Source of the DNA: Cyclobacteriaceae bacterium
GTDB lineage: Bacteria; Bacteroidota; Bacteroidia; Cytophagales; Cyclobacteriaceae
Length of the DNA stretch: 64,000 nucleotides
Direction: 5' to 3'
NCBI GenBank assembly: GCA_026129485.1
Contig: JAHCHY010000020.1
Span: 19,166-83,165, forward strand
The notes under the pieces were generated by a model. The model made no database searches. It was not told where the DNA came from and saw only the letters and a list, made by a program, of their open reading frames with translations. Both the position numbers and the translations under genes were made by a program. Positions 10,101-32,369 of this stretch are shown one piece after another (position 1 is the stretch's first letter; each line of letters begins with the position of its first letter).

Positions 10101-11411
10101 ATGCTTCGTTCCGTGTTGATCATTGGACTTTTTTGCACAGTCCCGGCTGCGGCTCAAAATATCCTCAAAACTTACCACGACCCCATGCAGCTTAAGGTTG
10201 ATGAAGAGATGACCGTATCGGCTGTAGATGGAAAAACCATGGAAGGTCGATACCGCAGGTTCTTTCCCAACGGTAAGCTTTCCATCGAAGGGAATTTTAA
10301 AAACGGTGTACGCTGGGGAACATTTTACGAATACCACCAGAACGGAACACTCATCCGCAAAATTGATTATGAAGACGGTATGCGCCATGGTTCGGTAGAG
10401 GTGTATGACGAACAGGGCCGGAATATCCAACGCGCATTTTACCAGAACAACAAGCTGATTGACAGCATCAAGTCGTTTTTTCCCAATGGCATAATTAAGC
10501 AGGAAGGTATTTTTGTGAAGGGTAAGCCTGACGGCCTGGTAAAGGAATATTATACTTCGGGCAAGCTGCAGAAGGAAATCATGTATGCCCGGCAAAAGCC
10601 CAATGGCATAACCAAAACCTATTACGAAACCGGTGTGCTGGAAAGCGAAGCCAATTATGCAGATGGTTTTATATCCGGCTTCTACAAGCTGTATTATCCA
10701 AACGCACAACTCGAGCTGGTTTACACGATCAAGGAAGGCAGTAAAGTAGGCGACTTTTTACATTACGATCAGCAGGGAAACAAGCTCCTGGAAGGTCATT
10801 TTATGAGCGCCCGGCTACACGGTGAAAATACCGGCTACTACCCCGATGGCACGGTGCGCCACAAATACCAGTTTAAGGAAGGCAGCAAGATCGGAACCAA
10901 TACCGATTACTACCCGAATGGCACCATCCGGGCCAAAGAGCAATTCGCGACAAATGGCCTTGACAGTAAGCTGACTGAATACACCCCGGAAGGAAAAACG
11001 GTTTACGAAAAATCATTCCGGCAGGGAAAGCCAAATGGCGCCTGGAGTTTTTATAATGAAGATGGCAAAACGCTGAAGCTAAAGGAAAGCTACGAAGCGG
11101 GCCAGCTTCACGGAATACGTACCCTGTACCACCCCAACGGGCAGAAAGCAACAGAAGAAACCTGGAAGTTTAACCTGCTGACCGGGGTGGTTAAAAATTA
11201 CTACGAAGATGGCAAGCTGCTATCGGAATGCATGTACCGCGGCAACCGGCAGCATGGCACCTACACAAAATATTACCCGGGTGGAAAAATCATGGAACAA
11301 GGCGAGTACGTGGCCAACAAAAAGCACAAGGAGTGGAAAGAATTTGATGAGTTGGGCAAAGTGATAAAAACCTATGTTTTCCGGGCCGGAATTTTAGTTG
11401 AGGAGAAATAA
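10101..11411 (+). CDS. Secreted YwqK/MORN-type repeat protein
   Basis: A signal peptide (MLRSVLIIGLFCTVPAAAQ) precedes about 16 tandem units of 22-24 residues built on YYPNGxLxxExxYxxGxxxGxxxxYY. These units match the MORN_2/YwqK repeat (COG2849). The database label 'toxin-antitoxin YwqK family antitoxin' is often attached to such proteins, but the signal peptide and the absence of a toxin gene argue against that role here. Beta-hairpin solenoids of this sort are likely periplasmic or surface scaffolds. No operon partner is evident. Confidence 0.82.
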   Translation: MLRSVLIIGLFCTVPAAAQNILKTYHDPMQLKVDEEMTVSAVDGKTMEGRYRRFFPNGKLSIEGNFKNGVRWGTFYEYHQNGTLIRKIDYEDGMRHGSVEVYDEQGRNIQRAFYQNNKLIDSIKSFFPNGIIKQEGIFVKGKPDGLVKEYYTSGKLQKEIMYARQKPNGITKTYYETGVLESEANYADGFISGFYKLYYPNAQLELVYTIKEGSKVGDFLHYDQQGNKLLEGHFMSARLHGENTGYYPDGTVRHKYQFKEGSKIGTNTDYYPNGTIRAKEQFATNGLDSKLTEYTPEGKTVYEKSFRQGKPNGAWSFYNEDGKTLKLKESYEAGQLHGIRTLYHPNGQKATEETWKFNLLTGVVKNYYEDGKLLSECMYRGNRQHGTYTKYYPGGKIMEQGEYVANKKHKEWKEFDELGKVIKTYVFRAGILVEEK

Positions 11412-24530: not shown

Positions 24531-25307
24531 TTATGGATTGGTTAAAGCGTTCACAAACGTGCGGATATCAGCATCCCGGTCATCGCTCTTACTTAATTGC
24601 TGAATAAACGAGCTGCCTACAATGACTCCTGCACCGTAAGCACAGGCCTGGGCATACGTGGTGTAATTGGAAATCCCGAAACCAATCAGGAACGGATTTT
24701 TAAGCTTGTAAGATTTCAGTCTTTTGAAATACGTAAGCTGCTCATCCGTAAATTCACCTTTGGCTCCCGTTGTGCTGGATGCCGATACGGCATAGATAAA
24801 ACCTGTGCTGAGGCTGTCAATTTTTTTTATTCTCTCCTCGCTTGTAGTGGGCGAGATTAAAAACGAAACACCCAGGTTAAGCGAATCCGTAAGGCCCCGG
24901 TACTGCTCAAATTCATCCAAAGGCAGGTCGGGCAGAATCAAACCATCCACACCTGCACGGGCTGCATCCTGAAAGAATTTCTCAAAGCCGTATTGCATAA
25001 CCGGGTTTAAATAGCCCATTAATATGATCGGCAGCTCAATTTTTTTTCGGATAGCAGCCACTTGCTTCAGCAACAAGACTACTGTCATGCCATTGTCCAA
25101 TGCCTGCTTATTGCTGGCCTGAATGGTTGGCCCGTCCGCTACCGGGTCGGAAAACGGAATCCCGATCTCAATCATATCTGCACCGGCTTCCTCAAGCGCT
25201 ACCGCTATGGATTCCGTGTCTTCCAATCCTGGAAACCCGGCTGTATAAAAAACAGAAAGCACAGGCTTGCGGGCGTTCGACAGTAAATCGGTAATTCTAT
25301 TCTTCAT
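24531..25307 (-). CDS. trpA: Tryptophan synthase alpha chain
   Basis: This TIM-barrel subunit cleaves indole-3-glycerol phosphate to indole and glyceraldehyde-3-phosphate. ADMIEIGIPFSDPVADGP holds the catalytic Glu and the substrate-binding region; LILPDLPLDE holds the catalytic Asp. The phosphate site is in FGISNYTTY and GVIVGSSFI. At 258 residues it has normal length. It is the last gene of the trp operon, 15 nt after trpB. A CTGTCA/TGACAG stem lies at 24497-24518 just downstream, without a clear T-run. Confidence 0.97.
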   Translation of the reverse strand: MKNRITDLLSNARKPVLSVFYTAGFPGLEDTESIAVALEEAGADMIEIGIPFSDPVADGPTIQASNKQALDNGMTVVLLLKQVAAIRKKIELPIILMGYLNPVMQYGFEKFFQDAARAGVDGLILPDLPLDEFEQYRGLTDSLNLGVSFLISPTTSEERIKKIDSLSTGFIYAVSASSTTGAKGEFTDEQLTYFKRLKSYKLKNPFLIGFGISNYTTYAQACAYGAGVIVGSSFIQQLSKSDDRDADIRTFVNALTNP

Positions 25308-25322
25308 TTCAGTTTCTTTAGC

Positions 25323-26504
25323 TCAATATTTTCCCCAGCGGATGTACGTTTCCAGATCTTTATCTCCCCTGCCCGACAGGTTAATAACCACCACATCTTC
25401 TTCCGTAAGTTCTAATTTTGAAAGCGCTGCAATTGCATGTGCTGATTCAATTGCCGGAATGATCCCTTCGGTGCGTGCCAGCTCAATGCCGGCATGCATG
25501 GCTTCATCATCGGTTGCATTTACAAACTGTACCCTGCCCGTGTCAAACAGGTGCGCATGTAATGGCCCGATACCCGGGTAATCCAGCCCGGCAGAAATAG
25601 AATACGGCTCAATCACCTGGCCATCGTGCGTTTGCATGAGTAATGTTTTGCTGCCATGCAACACACCGGGTTTACCCAATGCTGTGGTAGCGGCAGACTC
25701 ACCGCTATCCACTCCCTTACCGGCAGCTTCCACGCCTATCAACGCTACATGCTCTTCATCGAGGTAATGATAAAATGCTCCTGCTGCATTGCTGCCACCG
25801 CCCACGCAGGCCACCACATAGTCGGGGTTGGGTTGCCCGATTTCTGATACGAGCTGTTTTCTGATCTCTTCACTGATAACGGATTGAAACAACGTAACCA
25901 TGTGCGGATAAGGATGCGGCCCAACCACCGAACCAATGATATAATGTGTATCTGCCGGGTGATTGATCCAATGCCGCATCGCTTCATTGGTGGCATCCTT
26001 CAGTGTCATGTTACCGGAAAGGGCGGGCACCACCTGCGCACCCAATATACGCATGCGCTCCACATTAGGGCGTTGACGCTCCATATCGAGCTTACCCATG
26101 TACACCACACATTCCATCCCCATCAAGGCGCACACGGTAGCCGTTGCTACTCCATGCTGTCCGGCTCCTGTTTCGGCAATAATTTTCTGTTTACCTAATC
26201 GCCTGGCTAACAAAATCTGGCCAATCGTATTGTTGATCTTATGCGCACCGGTATGGCAAAGGTCTTCGCGTTTCAGGTAAATTTTTGCCTTGTACTTTTC
26301 CGAGAGCCGCGCAGCATGGTAAAGTGACGTGGGGCGCCCTACATAGTTGCGCAGCAAATCTGTAAACTCCTTTTGAAAAACAGGTTCCCGGATAATTTCG
26401 AGGTATTGCATTCGCAATTCTTCTACATTCGGATATAACATTTCCGGAATATAGGCTCCACCAAAATTCCCGTAATAGCCGCGTTCATCAACTTCGTATT
26501 TCAT
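25323..26504 (-). CDS. trpB: Tryptophan synthase beta chain
   Basis: This PLP enzyme joins indole (channelled from TrpA) with serine. The Schiff-base lysine is K89 in HTGAHKINN. The PLP phosphate loop is [10 protein letters not shown], and [11 protein letters not shown] is the conserved COMM-proximal region. At 393 residues it is a TrpB1-type protein. It is 12 nt downstream of trpF. Confidence 0.98.
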
Positions 26505-26516
26505 AGCTTACTCCAA

Positions 26517-27161
26517 TTATATATTTAACCTGGATACTGATTCGATAAGATCATTTAATTTCTTCACATCCTTTAACCCGGGCTCTGTTTCCACACCGCT
26601 GTTCATATCGATGGCATGTAACTGTGGGTGTTTAAGCCCGCGCAAATCGTTCAGGCTTTGAACAGAGATACCGCCACTCAGAAAAAAAGGAACTACTCCC
26701 GTGTATTGTTGCAGCAAAGACCAGTCAAACTGCACCGCATTGCCGCCATAATGCTTTCCTTTTGTATCAAACAGAAAAAAATCAGACGATTGCCGGTACG
26801 CTTCGGTAACCGAAAAATTAAACTGCTCGTCCACCCGAAAAACCTTTATCGTTTTTACACCTTCAGCCTTCAGGTTTTGCACAACCGATACCGGCTCATC
26901 GCCATGAAGCTGAACAAAATCCAGCCGGTGCTTATGAACCATCCTGAGCATCTTACCGGGTGCTGCATTCACAAAAACCCCTACCCGTTTTACGCCTGCC
27001 GGAAAATCATCGGGGATGAAAAAATCCTTACCCACAAACCTCGGTGAACCTTCGTAAAATATAAACCCCATATAATCGGGAGCCAGCCGTGCAACCTCCT
27101 GCATATTGGCGGCATGTCGCATTCCACAGACTTTCCATCGTACGGAGCTCAAGTGATTCAT
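26517..27161 (-). CDS. trpF: Phosphoribosylanthranilate isomerase
   Basis: This TIM-barrel enzyme performs the Amadori rearrangement of phosphoribosylanthranilate. The catalytic Cys is in WKVCGMRHAANMQE near the N-terminus, and the Asp in the FLFDTKGKHYGGNA loop. GGISVQSLNDL and DMNSGVETEPGLKD form the phosphate site. The ATG overlaps the trpC stop (ATGA), giving coupled translation. Confidence 0.96.
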   Translation of the reverse strand: MNHLSSVRWKVCGMRHAANMQEVARLAPDYMGFIFYEGSPRFVGKDFFIPDDFPAGVKRVGVFVNAAPGKMLRMVHKHRLDFVQLHGDEPVSVVQNLKAEGVKTIKVFRVDEQFNFSVTEAYRQSSDFFLFDTKGKHYGGNAVQFDWSLLQQYTGVVPFFLSGGISVQSLNDLRGLKHPQLHAIDMNSGVETEPGLKDVKKLNDLIESVSRLNI

Positions 27162-27964
27162 CTCGTCTGCTGTTCCAGTTTTTTTAATTCAACTATAAAA
27201 TCATGGCAAGCCAGCTCAGGCTCACTGTGCTGCATAAAATTCTGTCCCATTAAAAAGCCCCGGTAATCATACCGCTTTAATTCCATAATGGTTTTCGGAT
27301 TCTCAATGCCACTCTCCGATACTTTAACAAAATGATCGGGGATAAACGCTGCCAGCTCGTTTGACAGGTTTACATCGGTAACAAATGTTTTCAGGTTCCG
27401 GTTGTTAACCCCGACCAGGTCAGCGCCCGCCTCCAAGTTTGCTTCCAGCTCTTCGCGGTTGTGCACTTCCAGCAATACTTCCAGACCCAGCGTGTGCGCT
27501 GCTGCCGCCAGTTGTTTCAGCTTTGCGGGTTTAAGCGCGGCAGCTATCAACAAAATCGCATCGGCACCAATCGATTTGGCTTCTATCACCTGGTATTCAT
27601 CTACCGTAAAATCCTTGCGAAGAATCGGGCAGGCATTCAGGCTTCGGGCTGCAATCAAATCATCATCGCTTCCGCCAAAATAGTTCAAATCGGTAAGCAC
27701 CGAAATAGCCGATGCACCCGCCTGTTCATACCCTACGGAAATCCGCTCTACCGAAACATTCGCATTAATCACTCCTTTGGATGGCGACTTTCTTTTAATC
27801 TCGGCAATGATACCCGACCGGTCAGGCCGTGTTACAAAATCCTTCAGCGAAAAAACAGAACGTTCAAAATACGGGCGCTTCTCTAATTGCGCTACCGGTC
27901 GCTGTGCTTTTCGCGCTGCAACTTCCCTGTACTTATAAGCAATTATCTCCTGCAGAATATCCAT
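27158..27964 (-). CDS. trpC: Indole-3-glycerol-phosphate synthase
   Basis: This enzyme closes the indole ring of the anthranilate-derived precursor. The frame stays open further upstream to 28069, but the ATG at 27964 is preferred because it gives the standard N-terminus (MDILQEIIAYKYREV) and overlaps the trpD stop as TAATG. IIAEIKRKSPSKG holds the catalytic Glu and Lys. LRKDFTVDEYQVIE carries the general-acid Lys, and GVNNRNLKTF and SESGI complete the active site. The resulting 268 residues match the family. Confidence 0.96.
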   Translation of the reverse strand: MDILQEIIAYKYREVAARKAQRPVAQLEKRPYFERSVFSLKDFVTRPDRSGIIAEIKRKSPSKGVINANVSVERISVGYEQAGASAISVLTDLNYFGGSDDDLIAARSLNACPILRKDFTVDEYQVIEAKSIGADAILLIAAALKPAKLKQLAAAAHTLGLEVLLEVHNREELEANLEAGADLVGVNNRNLKTFVTDVNLSNELAAFIPDHFVKVSESGIENPKTIMELKRYDYRGFLMGQNFMQHSEPELACHDFIVELKKLEQQTR

Positions 27965-28950
27965 TACTTTTCCATTAAGTTTGTAAACGCTTTTAATGCC
28001 TTGCCGGATTTCAGCGCATCTGTAGCACGGGCTACCGCATGGGGTAATCCTCCTTTTACATCGGCACAATATAAAGCCATAGCCGCATTGGCAATTACGG
28101 CCGATTGCTGTGCCTCTGTAGCTTTATTCTCCAGCACATTCATAAAAATACGGGCAGACTCTTCAACGGTCGCTCCGCCTTTTATCTCCTCGTATTTCAC
28201 TTTCGGCAAGCCCATATCAGCCGGGTTTCCAAGACGTTCGCCACCGTTATAAAAATATTTAAACGAACCGGTAAGCGATACTTCATCATAGCCATCCAAC
28301 GAATGGACAATCAAAAAATCTTTTCCGCTTTGCTGATACAGGTAACCATACTGCCGGGCCAGCTCTAAGCTGAATACGCCCACCAGCTGGCGCGTGGGAA
28401 AAGCCGGGTTAACCATTGGCCCCAGCATATTGAAAAAAGTTTTCACGCCAAGCTCTTTCCGGATAGGCGCAACATTTTTCATAGCCGGGTGAAACAAGGG
28501 CGCATGCATAAAGCAAATGTTGCTTCGGTCAAGGCTGCGTTTAAGCTCATCGTGATCATTGGTGAATTGGTAGCCAAAGTACTCTAACAGGTTAGAGGAA
28601 CCACATGCCGATGAAACACCGTAGTTACCATGCTTGGCTACAGGCTGGCCTGCGGCTGCTACTACAAAAGATGATAGCGTGGAAAGATTAATCGTATTTT
28701 TTCCATCGCCTCCTGTTCCACACACATCCATCACCGGCTGGTCGAACCGTACCGGAACACAAAGCTCAAGCATCGCATCGCGAAAGCCCTGAAGCTCGTT
28801 TACCGTTATGCTGCGCATCATATACACCGTCATGAATGCGGCCGTCTGGCTCAAATTAAATTTTCCACGGGCCAGCTCAACCAAAACGCGGTGAGCGGTT
28901 TCTTTGGTGAGGCTGCGGTGTTCGATCAGCTCTGTTAAAATCTCTTTCAT
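27964..28950 (-). CDS. trpD: Anthranilate phosphoribosyltransferase
   Basis: This enzyme transfers phosphoribose from PRPP to anthranilate. CGTGGDGKNTINLST (PRPP loop) and KHGNYGVSSACGSSNLLEYFG (anthranilate site) are intact, as is the N-terminal helical domain with ELARGKFNLSQTAAFM. The 328 residues are standard. It lies 6 nt after trpG and overlaps trpC by one base. Confidence 0.97.
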   Translation of the reverse strand: MKEILTELIEHRSLTKETAHRVLVELARGKFNLSQTAAFMTVYMMRSITVNELQGFRDAMLELCVPVRFDQPVMDVCGTGGDGKNTINLSTLSSFVVAAAGQPVAKHGNYGVSSACGSSNLLEYFGYQFTNDHDELKRSLDRSNICFMHAPLFHPAMKNVAPIRKELGVKTFFNMLGPMVNPAFPTRQLVGVFSLELARQYGYLYQQSGKDFLIVHSLDGYDEVSLTGSFKYFYNGGERLGNPADMGLPKVKYEEIKGGATVEESARIFMNVLENKATEAQQSAVIANAAMALYCADVKGGLPHAVARATDALKSGKALKAFTNLMEK

Positions 28951-28956
28951 ACAGGT

Positions 28957-29529
28957 TTATCGGTTATAATTTAACCAGTTCTCAATCATGCGGGGGCCTT
29001 CCGGTGTCATGATGGACTCCGGGTGAAACTGCAGGCCTTTCACATCATATTCAGCATGACGCAATCCCATAATCAACCCGGCCTCATTACGTGCCGTTAC
29101 ATGCAGCTCACCATTAATAGATTCCGGCACCACGGCCCACGAGTGATAATGCGTGGCCTCAAACTTATCCGAAACACCTTTGAATAAATATTCGGCATCA
29201 TCTTCAATTGCGCTTATGGAAGTTACCCCATGCAATACCTGCGGAATATTAAACAGGGATGCGCCATACACTTCAGCTATTCCCTGGTGCCCCAGGCAAA
29301 TACCCAGAATACTTTTGGATGGTCCATAATTTTTGATGAGTGCTTTCATAATGCCGGCTTCATCCGGGATGCCCGGCCCCGGAGAGAGTAATATCTTATC
29401 GTAGGCAGCTACCGCCTCCACACTTATTTTATCGTTGCGATACACATCCGGGGAATACCCCAGCACACGAATGATGTGTACCAGGTTGTAGGTGAATGAA
29501 TCGTAATTATCGAGTACCAGTATCTTCAT
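28957..29529 (-). CDS. trpG: Anthranilate synthase component II (glutamine amidotransferase)
   Basis: This class I amidotransferase supplies ammonia to TrpE. The nucleophile is C78 in GICLGHQGIAEVYG, and the His/Glu pair is in LQFHPESIMTPEG. The N-terminal LVLDNYDSFTYNLVH is diagnostic of TrpG/PabA. The protein may also serve 4-amino-4-deoxychorismate synthase, but its position between trpE and trpD supports the tryptophan role. Confidence 0.97.
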   Translation of the reverse strand: MKILVLDNYDSFTYNLVHIIRVLGYSPDVYRNDKISVEAVAAYDKILLSPGPGIPDEAGIMKALIKNYGPSKSILGICLGHQGIAEVYGASLFNIPQVLHGVTSISAIEDDAEYLFKGVSDKFEATHYHSWAVVPESINGELHVTARNEAGLIMGLRHAEYDVKGLQFHPESIMTPEGPRMIENWLNYNR

Positions 29530-29536
29530 ATAGCTT

Positions 29537-30928
29537 CTAAATTTTTTCCGCCAGCAGCACCGCTTTGCGCAATGCCTCCAGCTTATTGTTTACTTCCTGC
29601 AATTCACTTTCCGCTTTGGATTTTGACACGACCCCCGCACCGGCCTGGTAAATAAGTTGATTATCCTTGCTTAAAAATGTGCGGATCATAATAGCATGGT
29701 TAAAGGAATTATCGAACCCGATAAAGCCGATAGCCCCGCCATAAAAGCCCCGGTTTATGTTTTCATATTGATCAATCAGCTTCATGGCCATGTGCTTGGG
29801 CGCGCCTGAAAGTGTTCCTGCCGGAAACGTATCGGCAGCCACCTGCACCACTGAGGTGCCGGAACGCAACGTACCCGTAACCTTAGACACTAAGTGAATC
29901 ACATGCGAGTAGTATTGAATCTCTTTGAATACTTCCACGTGTACGGATGCTGCATTCCGGCTCATGTCATTACGGGCCAGGTCAACCAGCATGGTATGCT
30001 CGGCATTTTCTTTTTCATCGGCCGAAAGTCGCTCAGCCAATTGTGCATCTTCCTGGTCATTACCCGATCTGCGAAACGTTCCTGCAATCGGGTAAATGTG
30101 CGCCTTACCATTTCTGATCTGAATCTGCGCTTCGGGTGAAGATCCAAACAATTTGAAATTACCATAATCAAAATAGAACAGGTAGGGAGATGGATTAATA
30201 GACCTTAGTGCACGATATACATTAAATTCATCACCTTGAAAACCTGTAACAAATCTCCGTGAAAGCACGATCTGAAACACATCGCCCCTGAAGCAATGTT
30301 GCTTACCCCGGTTAATGATCTCCAGGAACTCTTCATCCGAATAATTGGACTGTTCCTGCCGGGTACGGTTAAACTGAAACGTGGTTACACGGTTATTATT
30401 GATCAGTTGCTCCAACCTTGGCAACGTGCTGGCTGTATGCTCACCTTCGGGCTGATGTTCGAATAAAGTCATCTCGTTATGAAAATGATCCACTACAATT
30501 ACATACCGGTAAAGCGAATACATCATATCGGGAATTTCCGGCCCGGTTTGTTGCAGCGTTAAGTCCTCGAAATAACGCACGGCATCGTAAGCCATGTAGC
30601 CAAACAAGCCGGCATGCGGATAGCGCGTGGGAACCACTTCTACCCGGAAGGAATTTTTAAACGTTTCAAAAAGCGAAACCAGCTCACCGGGCATGAAGCT
30701 AACGGTGCGTGCTTCCGTATCCGGCAAGGTAATTTCCGCCTTTCCTCCAGCCACTTTAAATATGGCAAGGGGTTCGCAACAAATAAACGACAAGCTGTTT
30801 TCATGACCGTGATAGTCGGAGCTCTCCAACAAAATGCTGGCTGCAAAAACATCCCGAAGCTTCAGGTAAATGTTTACCGGTGTAATCGTGTCGGCCAGCA
30901 ACTGACGGGTATAGGTTTTAAAATTCAT
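29537..30928 (-). CDS. trpE: Anthranilate synthase component I
   Basis: This chorismate-utilising enzyme makes anthranilate with ammonia from TrpG. The catalytic core contains FQIVLSRRF, IAGTFRRSGNDQEDAQLAERL, FPAGTLSGAPK and GFYGGAIGFIG. The start is set at the ATG at 30928 (MNFKTYTRQLLADT). The open frame upstream runs through the attenuator hairpin and is unlikely to be translated. The conserved feedback-site LLESSDYHGHENSLSF is present near the N-terminus, suggesting tryptophan inhibition. At 463 residues it has normal length. Confidence 0.96.
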   Translation of the reverse strand: MNFKTYTRQLLADTITPVNIYLKLRDVFAASILLESSDYHGHENSLSFICCEPLAIFKVAGGKAEITLPDTEARTVSFMPGELVSLFETFKNSFRVEVVPTRYPHAGLFGYMAYDAVRYFEDLTLQQTGPEIPDMMYSLYRYVIVVDHFHNEMTLFEHQPEGEHTASTLPRLEQLINNNRVTTFQFNRTRQEQSNYSDEEFLEIINRGKQHCFRGDVFQIVLSRRFVTGFQGDEFNVYRALRSINPSPYLFYFDYGNFKLFGSSPEAQIQIRNGKAHIYPIAGTFRRSGNDQEDAQLAERLSADEKENAEHTMLVDLARNDMSRNAASVHVEVFKEIQYYSHVIHLVSKVTGTLRSGTSVVQVAADTFPAGTLSGAPKHMAMKLIDQYENINRGFYGGAIGFIGFDNSFNHAIMIRTFLSKDNQLIYQAGAGVVSKSKAESELQEVNNKLEALRKAVLLAEKI

Positions 30929-30942
30929 TTTCGAAACAGGTT

Positions 30943-30978
30943 TAAAATAAGAAGGCCCACTGTGAACAGCGGGCCTTC
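30943..30978 (-). terminator. trp attenuator hairpin
   Basis: On the minus strand, GAAGGCCCGCTG (30978-30967) pairs with CAGTGGGCCTTC (30962-30951) around the loop TTCA: 12 bp with one G-T pair, followed by TTATTTT. It stands between the Trp-rich leader peptide and trpE. The competing helix is GTGAGCAG (31010-31003), which spans the leader's last Trp codon and stop. It can pair over 8 bp with CTGTTCAC (30969-30962), the top of the terminator. Confidence 0.9.
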
Positions 30979-31006
30979 GGCATATCATTTTACATAGCAG
31001 GGCTGC

Positions 31007-31063
31007 TCACCAATCGAATTTTGATTTGTGCCACCACCATGCAGTATGTACAAGCTGACTCAT
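31007..31063 (-). CDS. trpL: trp operon leader peptide
   Basis: The 18-codon frame encodes MSQLVHTAWWWHKSKFDW, with four Trp codons, three consecutive. It ends 28 nt before the attenuator hairpin of trpE. Expected role: when charged tRNA-Trp is scarce the ribosome stalls at WWW, leaving GTGAGCAG free to open the terminator. When Trp is plentiful the ribosome reaches the TGA, covers that segment and termination follows. The ATG overlaps the stop codon of the THX gene as TAATG, so translation is probably coupled. Confidence 0.9.
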   Translation of the reverse strand: MSQLVHTAWWWHKSKFDW

Positions 31064-31236
31064 TATTCTGCTTTCTTACGGCTTGTCTTCTTGGGTTTTG
31101 CTTCTACGGCTGCTACCGTAGTCTTCGTTGAAGCAACACGCTTCAGGCGAGCCTTGATTTTCTTACGGTTACGGGTAACCCCGAACGAACCTGTTGTTCG
31201 TTTACCTTTCCTGGATTTTTTATCTCCTCTTCCCAT
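31063..31236 (-). CDS. Small ribosomal subunit protein THX
   Basis: The 57-residue, very basic protein begins MGRGDKKSRKGKRTTGSFGV, then TRNRKK. It matches the THX (Thx) family that binds the head of the 30S subunit in Thermus and is conserved in Bacteroidota. The family core is about 26-30 residues. The rest (AVEAKPKKTSRKKAE) is a Lys/Ala-rich tail of the type often found on Bacteroidota ribosomal proteins. A good promoter lies 23-52 nt upstream. The next frame downstream on the same strand is the trp leader. Confidence 0.9.
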   Translation of the reverse strand: MGRGDKKSRKGKRTTGSFGVTRNRKKIKARLKRVASTKTTVAAVEAKPKKTSRKKAE

Positions 31237-31258: not shown

Positions 31259-31288
31259 CAAGTATAGTAAAGGGTTCTTTTACCACAA
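31259..31288 (-). promoter_or_regulatory. Promoter for THX-trpLEGDCFBA
   Basis: On the minus strand, the -33 box TTTG (31288-31285), an 18-nt spacer and the -7 box TATACTTG (31266-31259) match the Bacteroidota consensus TTTG/TAnnTTTG with one mismatch. No other consensus promoter is seen between it and trpE. Confidence 0.65.
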
Positions 31289-31378
31289 AATTTTCCAAAC
31301 GCTTTCTCACCAAAATCAGCTTCAAATCGGCTTCGACAAGCTCAGCCCGACATTCGAAGATGGTTTTTAGAGATGTCC

Positions 31379-32199: not shown

Positions 32200-32207
32200 T
32201 AGTTTTG
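32200..32207 (+). promoter_or_regulatory. -7 box of 4.5S RNA gene
   Basis: TAgtTTTG matches TAnnTTTG exactly and ends 5 nt before the predicted RNA 5' end. The -33 region is weak. Confidence 0.6.
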
Positions 32208-32211
32208 CACC

Positions 32212-32303
32212 GGCAAATCGGCACGACCAGCTCCTGCTGAACTCCCCCAGGGCCGGAAGGCAGCAAGGGTAGGTGGTTGTAGCGGTGCGATGTTCGGTTT
32301 GCC
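32212..32303 (+). ncRNA. ffs: Signal recognition particle 4.5S RNA
   Basis: The terminal helix pairs GGCAAATCG (from 32212) with CGGTTTGCC (to 32303). The apical domain CAGGGCCGGAAGGCAGCAAGG (about 32249-32269) contains the GGAA tetraloop and the asymmetric internal loop that bind Ffh. At about 92 nt it is the short bacterial form without an Alu domain. A T-run (ACTTTTTT) follows at once and probably terminates it. Confidence 0.93.
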
Positions 32304-32369
32304 ACTTTTTTAAATCCTGTGGAGTTTTCCTGTTTCCACTAACTTTAGGTCATCAATTCAATATCAATC

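Follow-up and report, generated by a model that had tools for sequence, protein, structure and literature searches.

Locus organization

The window (the whole stretch of DNA analysed here, 64,000 nucleotides from a Cyclobacteriaceae bacterium) carries a short leader reading frame, a terminator and the trp genes, all on the minus strand, with the operon downstream of the terminator in the order trpEGDCFBA (Table 1). Relatives back a trpE start at 30928, whereas the mechanical ORF list puts it at 30988, upstream of the terminator. A first-pass annotation had read this site as a trp attenuator, and the features on which it built are present. The 18-codon frame with four Trp codons, three of them adjacent, for which no strand had been given, runs from an ATG at 31063 to a TGA stop at 31009-31007, and its fourth Trp codon lies at 31012-31010. 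The 12-bp hairpin with its U-rich tail precedes trpE, and a segment at 31010-31002, GTGAGCAG(C), covers the stop together with the final base of the fourth Trp codon. This segment can pair with the top of the terminator as claimed, GTGAGCAG with CTGTTCAC (30969-30962), over 8 bp, or 9 bp counting the next C-G. Two elements had been missed. One is a protector helix, in which segment 1 pairs with GATTGGTG (31015-31008). The other is bTHX, encoding 30S ribosomal protein THX, whose TAA stop overlaps the leader ATG as TAATG. Among Pfam models, bTHX matches RPS31 alone, under the cut-off of that model.

Table 1. Features of the bTHX-leader-trp region, in window coordinates.
Feature	Position	Strand	Basis
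Candidate -33 box of the bTHX promoter, TTTG	31286..31289	-	Sequence; scan of coupled loci and controls; presumed Bacteroidota promoter form
Candidate -7 box, TATACTTG	31259..31266	-	5/6 to TAnnTTTG; 19 nt past the -33 box, 22 nt upstream of the bTHX ATG
bTHX, 30S ribosomal protein THX, 57 aa	31063..31236	-	NCBIfam TIGR04560, 36.7 bits (cut-off 26)
Leader peptide ORF, MSQLVHTAWWWHKSKFDW	31007..31063	-	18 codons; conserved upstream of trpE
Three adjacent Trp codons (codons 9-11)	31031..31039	-	WWW in 90/110 family regions
Segment 1 (arm 1), CACAAATC	31023..31030	-	Helix 1:2 counts on alignment A1, 91.1% of cells paired
Segment 2, GTGAGCAGC	31002..31010	-	Pairs with segment 3 in 24/24 A1 rows; almost invariant
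Segment 3, GCTGTTCAC	30962..30970	-	Within terminator 5' arm and loop; A1 pairing, shuffle test
Terminator hairpin (3:4), 12 bp, GAAGGCCCGCTG-TTCA-CAGTGGGCCTTC	30951..30978	-	Fold and comparison in relatives
U-rich tail, TTATTTTA	30943..30950	-	Sequence and hairpin scan of loci
trpE	29537..30928	-	Best NCBIfam model TIGR00564, 413 bits, under its cut-off of 517.7
trpG, trpD, trpC, trpF, trpB, trpA	24531..29529	-	trpF models score under their cut-offs

About 1 kb upstream of bTHX lies a small SRP RNA (RF04183, 80.9 bits; window 32205-32307, plus strand), and such an RNA is also found close to trpE in L032, L036, L040, L050, L058, L075 and L167. A scan of the window returned a second attenuator candidate, MSVPFWWYS at 10354, with a long but weak hairpin; it was set aside as probably due to chance.

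Conservation of the Trp leader upstream of trpE

We sought trpE in 118 genomes of the family, found a match in 112 and took 80 named loci. The 110 family regions compared include two from G115 and omit G046, G081 and G087, where the match begins at a contig end or within trpE; of these three, G081 and G087 do have WW leaders. Beyond the family, 40 of 47 TrpE-like matches were taken (G128 twice; one from the same order, the rest from the same class), and those omitted were G152, G172 and G122, at a contig edge or fragmentary, along with G160, G258, G164 and G226. L194 and L227 are short pieces.

A leader with two adjacent Trp codons (WW) precedes trpE in 101 of the 110 family regions, with WWW in 90 and no WW leader in nine. 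Outside the family, 23 of 40 regions have a WW leader, with WWW in 16, and 17 have none. An ATG-initiated ORF that contains WWW and is no longer than 30 codons occurs at most 350 nt from trpE in 89/110 family regions vs 2/22,000 mononucleotide shuffles. The fourth Trp codon is not conserved, being W in close relatives only and M, L, R or other residues elsewhere. Taken as a bare string, TGGTGGTGG has 109 sites in the genome vs 74 for the reversed control, and we rejected it as an uninformative signal; since the string is not rare, the argument rests on context and conservation, with chance levels judged from trpE-upstream regions and shuffles.

In all, 19 of 190 trpE rows show no WW leader within 340 nt. 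Among these, L081, L082, L103 and L109 carry a WWW leader farther upstream, L083 is cut off, and L024, L157, L168 and L169 are matched by model R1, which was built in this analysis from coupled loci, those in which bTHX adjoins the leader (41 rows, 39 distinct). At L168 and L169, the R1 match lies upstream of trpE and the Trp run is Trp-Tyr-Trp. A GIY-YIG endonuclease-like gene (PF01541, 64.3 bits; L109:2628-2924) sits between the Trp leader and trpE of L109, and a frame resembling it, judged by eye only, is present in L081, L082 and L103.

Three alternative helices in the leader region

The remaining 171 of the 190 loci (160 distinct) have a WW leader at most 340 nt from trpE, and a hairpin with a U-rich tail precedes trpE in every one of them (171/171). 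Because this hairpin search is loose, a shuffle control was run: 159/160 distinct loci score -12 or better vs 77/1,600 shuffles, and the score of the locus itself was equalled in 0/1,600. The fold of the 145-nt leader region in the window has an energy of -46.8 kcal/mol (z -4.38), which none of 200 shuffles matched. The duplex between segment 2 and the terminator 5' arm and loop, the putative antiterminator, reaches p<=0.05 against dinucleotide shuffles in 80/160 distinct loci (mean z -1.95), to which the coupled loci contribute 31 (of 41) and the other loci 49 (of 119).

We then asked the alignments how well each helix is kept. Alignment A1 holds 24 rows of subgroup A, including the window (24 of 25 loci, L042 being omitted as nearly identical to L004; the 3' tails of L008, L037 and L065 were shortened), and alignment A2 holds 16 rows of subgroup B. 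In these counts the rows are related and the cells are not independent events. In A1, helix 1:2 has 12 cells changed on both sides, and helix 3:4 is 100% paired with 13 such cells. Helix 2:3 is likewise 100% paired, with 8 of 9 pairs invariant, so the covariation in its favor is drawn from subgroup B and from comparing the subgroups with each other. In A2, pairing amounts to 92.0% for helix 1:2, 96.9% for helix 2:3 and 94.3% for helix 3:4, with 4, 5 and 19 cells changed on both sides, respectively. Sliding the helix partners lowers pairing in every case in both alignments. Some pair measures do not rise above shuffles; the double-change pairs of A2 helix 1:2 are matched by 426/500. The antiterminator letters differ between the subgroups yet pair in both, GTGAACAGC with GCTGTTCAC and GATCGG with CCGATC. 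In four subgroup B loci (L011, L052, L058 and L060), one segment 2 position changes jointly with its partners in arm 1 and segment 3, the pattern expected of a strand that takes part in two alternative helices; since the four loci are close neighbors on the tree, a single inherited event may account for it. Three mutually exclusive helices (1:2, 2:3 and 3:4) are thus supported by covariation. Conservation and covariation in relatives, the check that the first-pass annotation had proposed for its reading, bear it out: the Trp run is kept, and so are the alternative pairings, which covary.

Together, leader conservation, its rarity in shuffles and helix covariation make ribosome-mediated trp attenuation well supported at the level of sequence. 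Three elements of such a switch are found here: a short Trp-clustered ORF, predicted to be translated, upstream of the trp genes; an intrinsic terminator between the leader and the first gene; and mutually exclusive antiterminator and protector helices, the antiterminator almost invariant in subgroup A. That the hairpin is a plain bTHX terminator beside a chance WWW ORF is highly improbable. The hairpin would indeed also end the bTHX mRNA, but the excess of WWW frames over shuffles, the alternative helices and the occurrence of this leader in lineages where bTHX is not next to it all argue against it. Nor do we give much credence to an additional action in trans of the released leader RNA or peptide, for which there is precedent (in the part of PMC7298713 consulted). 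His directly follows WWW in 88/141 loci, but the His codon lies inside helix 1:2, and conservation beside WWW is at least partly due to pairing.

Relation to known leader RNAs

Two catalogued leaders resemble the one in the window. RF01692 (Bacteroid-trp) is a tryptophan peptide leader RNA of Bacteroidetes, where leaders of this kind are described from flavobacterial sequences (Weinberg et al. 2010, PMC2864571). The proteobacterial trp leader (RF00513) shares the Trp-codon leader, three exclusive helices and a terminator before the trp genes; the leader in the window differs in following bTHX and in starting without a Shine-Dalgarno sequence. The first-pass description of the site as attenuation of the proteobacterial type is supported by sequence but incomplete, RF01692 being equally near as a catalogued kind. 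In Flavobacterium psychrophilum, clues of leader-peptide attenuation have been reported at amino-acid operons (PMC9723704), in an article whose main text contains neither "tryptophan" nor "trp". The authors of PMC2965389 were aware of no leader-peptide attenuation beyond Proteobacteria and Actinobacteria until they described cases in Firmicutes.

At Rfam gathering thresholds, the window has no match at the leader. RF01692 scores 19.9 of the required 49 bits (E 4.7, no better than the chance matches listed), and its threshold is reached by 0/20 coupled loci. RF00513 scores 20.3 of 41 bits, and no model has a better E-value in the region than its 0.042, which covers the whole model. GibS, an unrelated sRNA model, scores 22 of 115 bits there, so the RF01692 and RF00513 scores alone prove nothing. 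T-box models give no match in the window at gathering and none in 30920-31080 up to E 10.

RF01692 does match leaders upstream of trpE in L093, L107, L196 and L203. All four also carry a WWW ORF, and no bTHX coupling is seen in their leader-proximal sequence. R1 overlaps these four places at 22-32 bits, but plain terminators elsewhere give 28-36 bits, and we dropped R1 as proof of common descent with RF01692; any common descent would thus rest on place, order and the WWW ORF. R1 has a single match in the window's genome, at the leader site, and matches in 69/118 family genomes, seven of them solely away from trpE. At the off-trpE matches in G083, G038, G040, G013, G039 and G049, no ORF shows a run of Trp codons, although one carries two that stand apart. 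R1 also misses G017, from the window's own genus, despite its WWW leader. The comparisons above provide sequence evidence for all three trp attenuator helices in a Bacteroidota branch that the Rfam models miss.

The leader is joined to a ribosomal-protein gene

Across the 39 distinct coupled loci, the distance from the bTHX stop to the leader ATG ranges from -4 to +18 nt, with a median of 3. The bTHX frame is altered in its 3' part in L034 and L035, which could be sequencing error; in L035, bTHX ends 4 nt past the leader start, and the overlap is kept.

We scanned for one promoter type (TTTG, 18-21 nt, TAnnTTTG), scored out of 10. A site of at least 9/10 lies upstream of bTHX in 38/39 coupled loci, none of them perfect, vs 856/7,800 dinucleotide shuffles. 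At least 8/10 is reached in 39/39, but 3,397/7,800 shuffles also reach it, so the looser count says little. The best site lies 16-31 nt before the bTHX ATG in 38 loci and just 3 nt away in L040. Upstream of the leader itself, no coupled locus (0/39) has a site of at least 8/10, whereas 101 of 117 uncoupled loci do, 89 of them reaching 9/10. A perfect -7 box (TAnnTTTG) at most 45 nt from the leader is likewise found in 0/39 coupled loci, 3/13 loci with a distant bTHX and 68/107 without bTHX; this box count treats L033 and L034 as uncoupled, because the bTHX pattern missed them, but both are coupled by eye and were excluded from the 117-locus control.

A quick tree search on TrpE, with SH-aLRT as the sole support measure, places all 41 coupled rows in a single branch (support 100) that contains no uncoupled rows. 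In other lineages the leader directly follows a promoter of its own, so a single derived change is the simplest account of the coupled state. In the Bacteroidota branch that contains the window, the switch has apparently given up its own promoter and begins at the bTHX stop codon, and trp transcription is probably read-through from the ribosomal-protein unit. The first-pass reading of the leader was in this respect incomplete: attenuation holds on the sequence evidence, but the leader is not a free-standing 5' leader, as it overlaps the bTHX stop and has no convincing promoter of its own. Very probably, the site is a ribosome-mediated attenuator of trp transcription, added at the end of the transcription unit of a ribosomal-protein gene.

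It is unlikely, in our judgement, that the attenuator is real but bTHX a mere neighbor, with a weakly matching or different promoter inside bTHX driving trp. Only one promoter type was scanned, and a 5/6 -7 box occurs at most 45 nt from the leader in 7/39 coupled loci, at scattered distances; the split between coupled and uncoupled loci upstream of the leader, and the 9/10 sites upstream of bTHX, speak against such a promoter and for read-through.

In nine loci (L079, L084, L089, L092, L098, L102, L104, L106 and L107), the end of the -7 box lies 5 nt upstream of the leader ATG. The box position is given as -12 to -5 for F. psychrophilum, where just 5.5% of mRNAs are leaderless (PMC9723704), so these transcripts would start about at the ATG and be nearly leaderless.

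A proposed model of attenuation coupled to bTHX translation

The ORF, the three helices, the conserved order and a promoter-like site before bTHX but not before the leader are supported by our comparisons; from these we infer the stalling, the response to tryptophan, the co-transcription and the hand-over of ribosomes from bTHX. RNA polymerase would start upstream of bTHX and read bTHX, then the leader, and a ribosome ending bTHX would already sit at the leader start codon (TAATG). When charged tRNA-Trp is scarce, the ribosome would stall at WWW and cover segment 1, so that 2:3 pairs, the terminator is blocked and trpEGDCFBA is transcribed. When tryptophan is ample, a ribosome at the stop would cover segment 2 and 3:4 would form; without a ribosome, helix 1:2 would hold segment 2, again allowing 3:4. 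Once 3:4 has formed, transcription would end past bTHX and the leader. Ribosome footprint sizes, as generally known, enter the masking argument. Segment 2 lies about 20 nt past WWW and in the window begins at the stop. It begins 20-25 nt upstream of the stop in 15/41 coupled loci, which fit the model less well, as a stop-bound ribosome would mask segment 2 only partly.

We tentatively propose, at a likelihood just short of even, that this is a translationally coupled attenuator: in one branch of the Cytophagales, the trp leader gave up its promoter and came to follow bTHX as its downstream partner. Transcription would run through bTHX, with ribosomes passing from bTHX to the leader. A somewhat less probable but still quite conceivable arrangement is that the two are co-transcribed while the leader is initiated afresh, the overlap reflecting compact packing. 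Distances of up to +18 nt and the A-rich sequence preceding the leader ATG fit fresh initiation; the close spacing held across the whole branch favors hand-over. If the coupled attenuator is real, transcription of the Trp enzymes would be read-through from a ribosome-synthesis promoter, and a ribosome passed on where stop and start overlap would already be trailing each polymerase that reaches the switch. The switch would then read growth rate jointly with tryptophan, and gene order would solve the old problem of ribosome-polymerase synchrony. The switch seems to have been rewired in evolution: once served by a promoter of its own, very near the start of the leader, it now sits at the tail of a gene for a ribosomal protein. 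It thereby offers a natural system in which to study how an attenuator is loaded with a ribosome in time, in bacteria not reliant on Shine-Dalgarno pairing.

Attenuators of this kind are already known, and the version joined to bTHX adds a new variant. A search of the open-access literature with loose terms returned nothing relevant on a link between bTHX and trp. A comparable arrangement involves E. coli rplT, the gene for L20. In rplT-pheM-pheST, as in the window, a leader-peptide attenuator lies behind a ribosomal-protein gene (PMC5371410); pheM, unlike the leader in the window, senses Phe and is not homologous as far as known, and the part of that article consulted describes no stop/start overlap for rplT-pheM.

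Attenuators can also stand in series. Upstream of trpE in ten loci (L018, L064, L105, L149, L167, L174, L175, L183, L184 and L185), there are two Trp leader ORFs, each with its own terminator, and a perfect -7 box precedes the first leader in 8/10 and the second in 0/10. Salmonella mgtCBR similarly has two ORF-based attenuators in series (PMC3641672), although it does not respond to tryptophan and the window has a single attenuator. At the ten trpE loci, a tandem arrangement would sharpen or extend the response.
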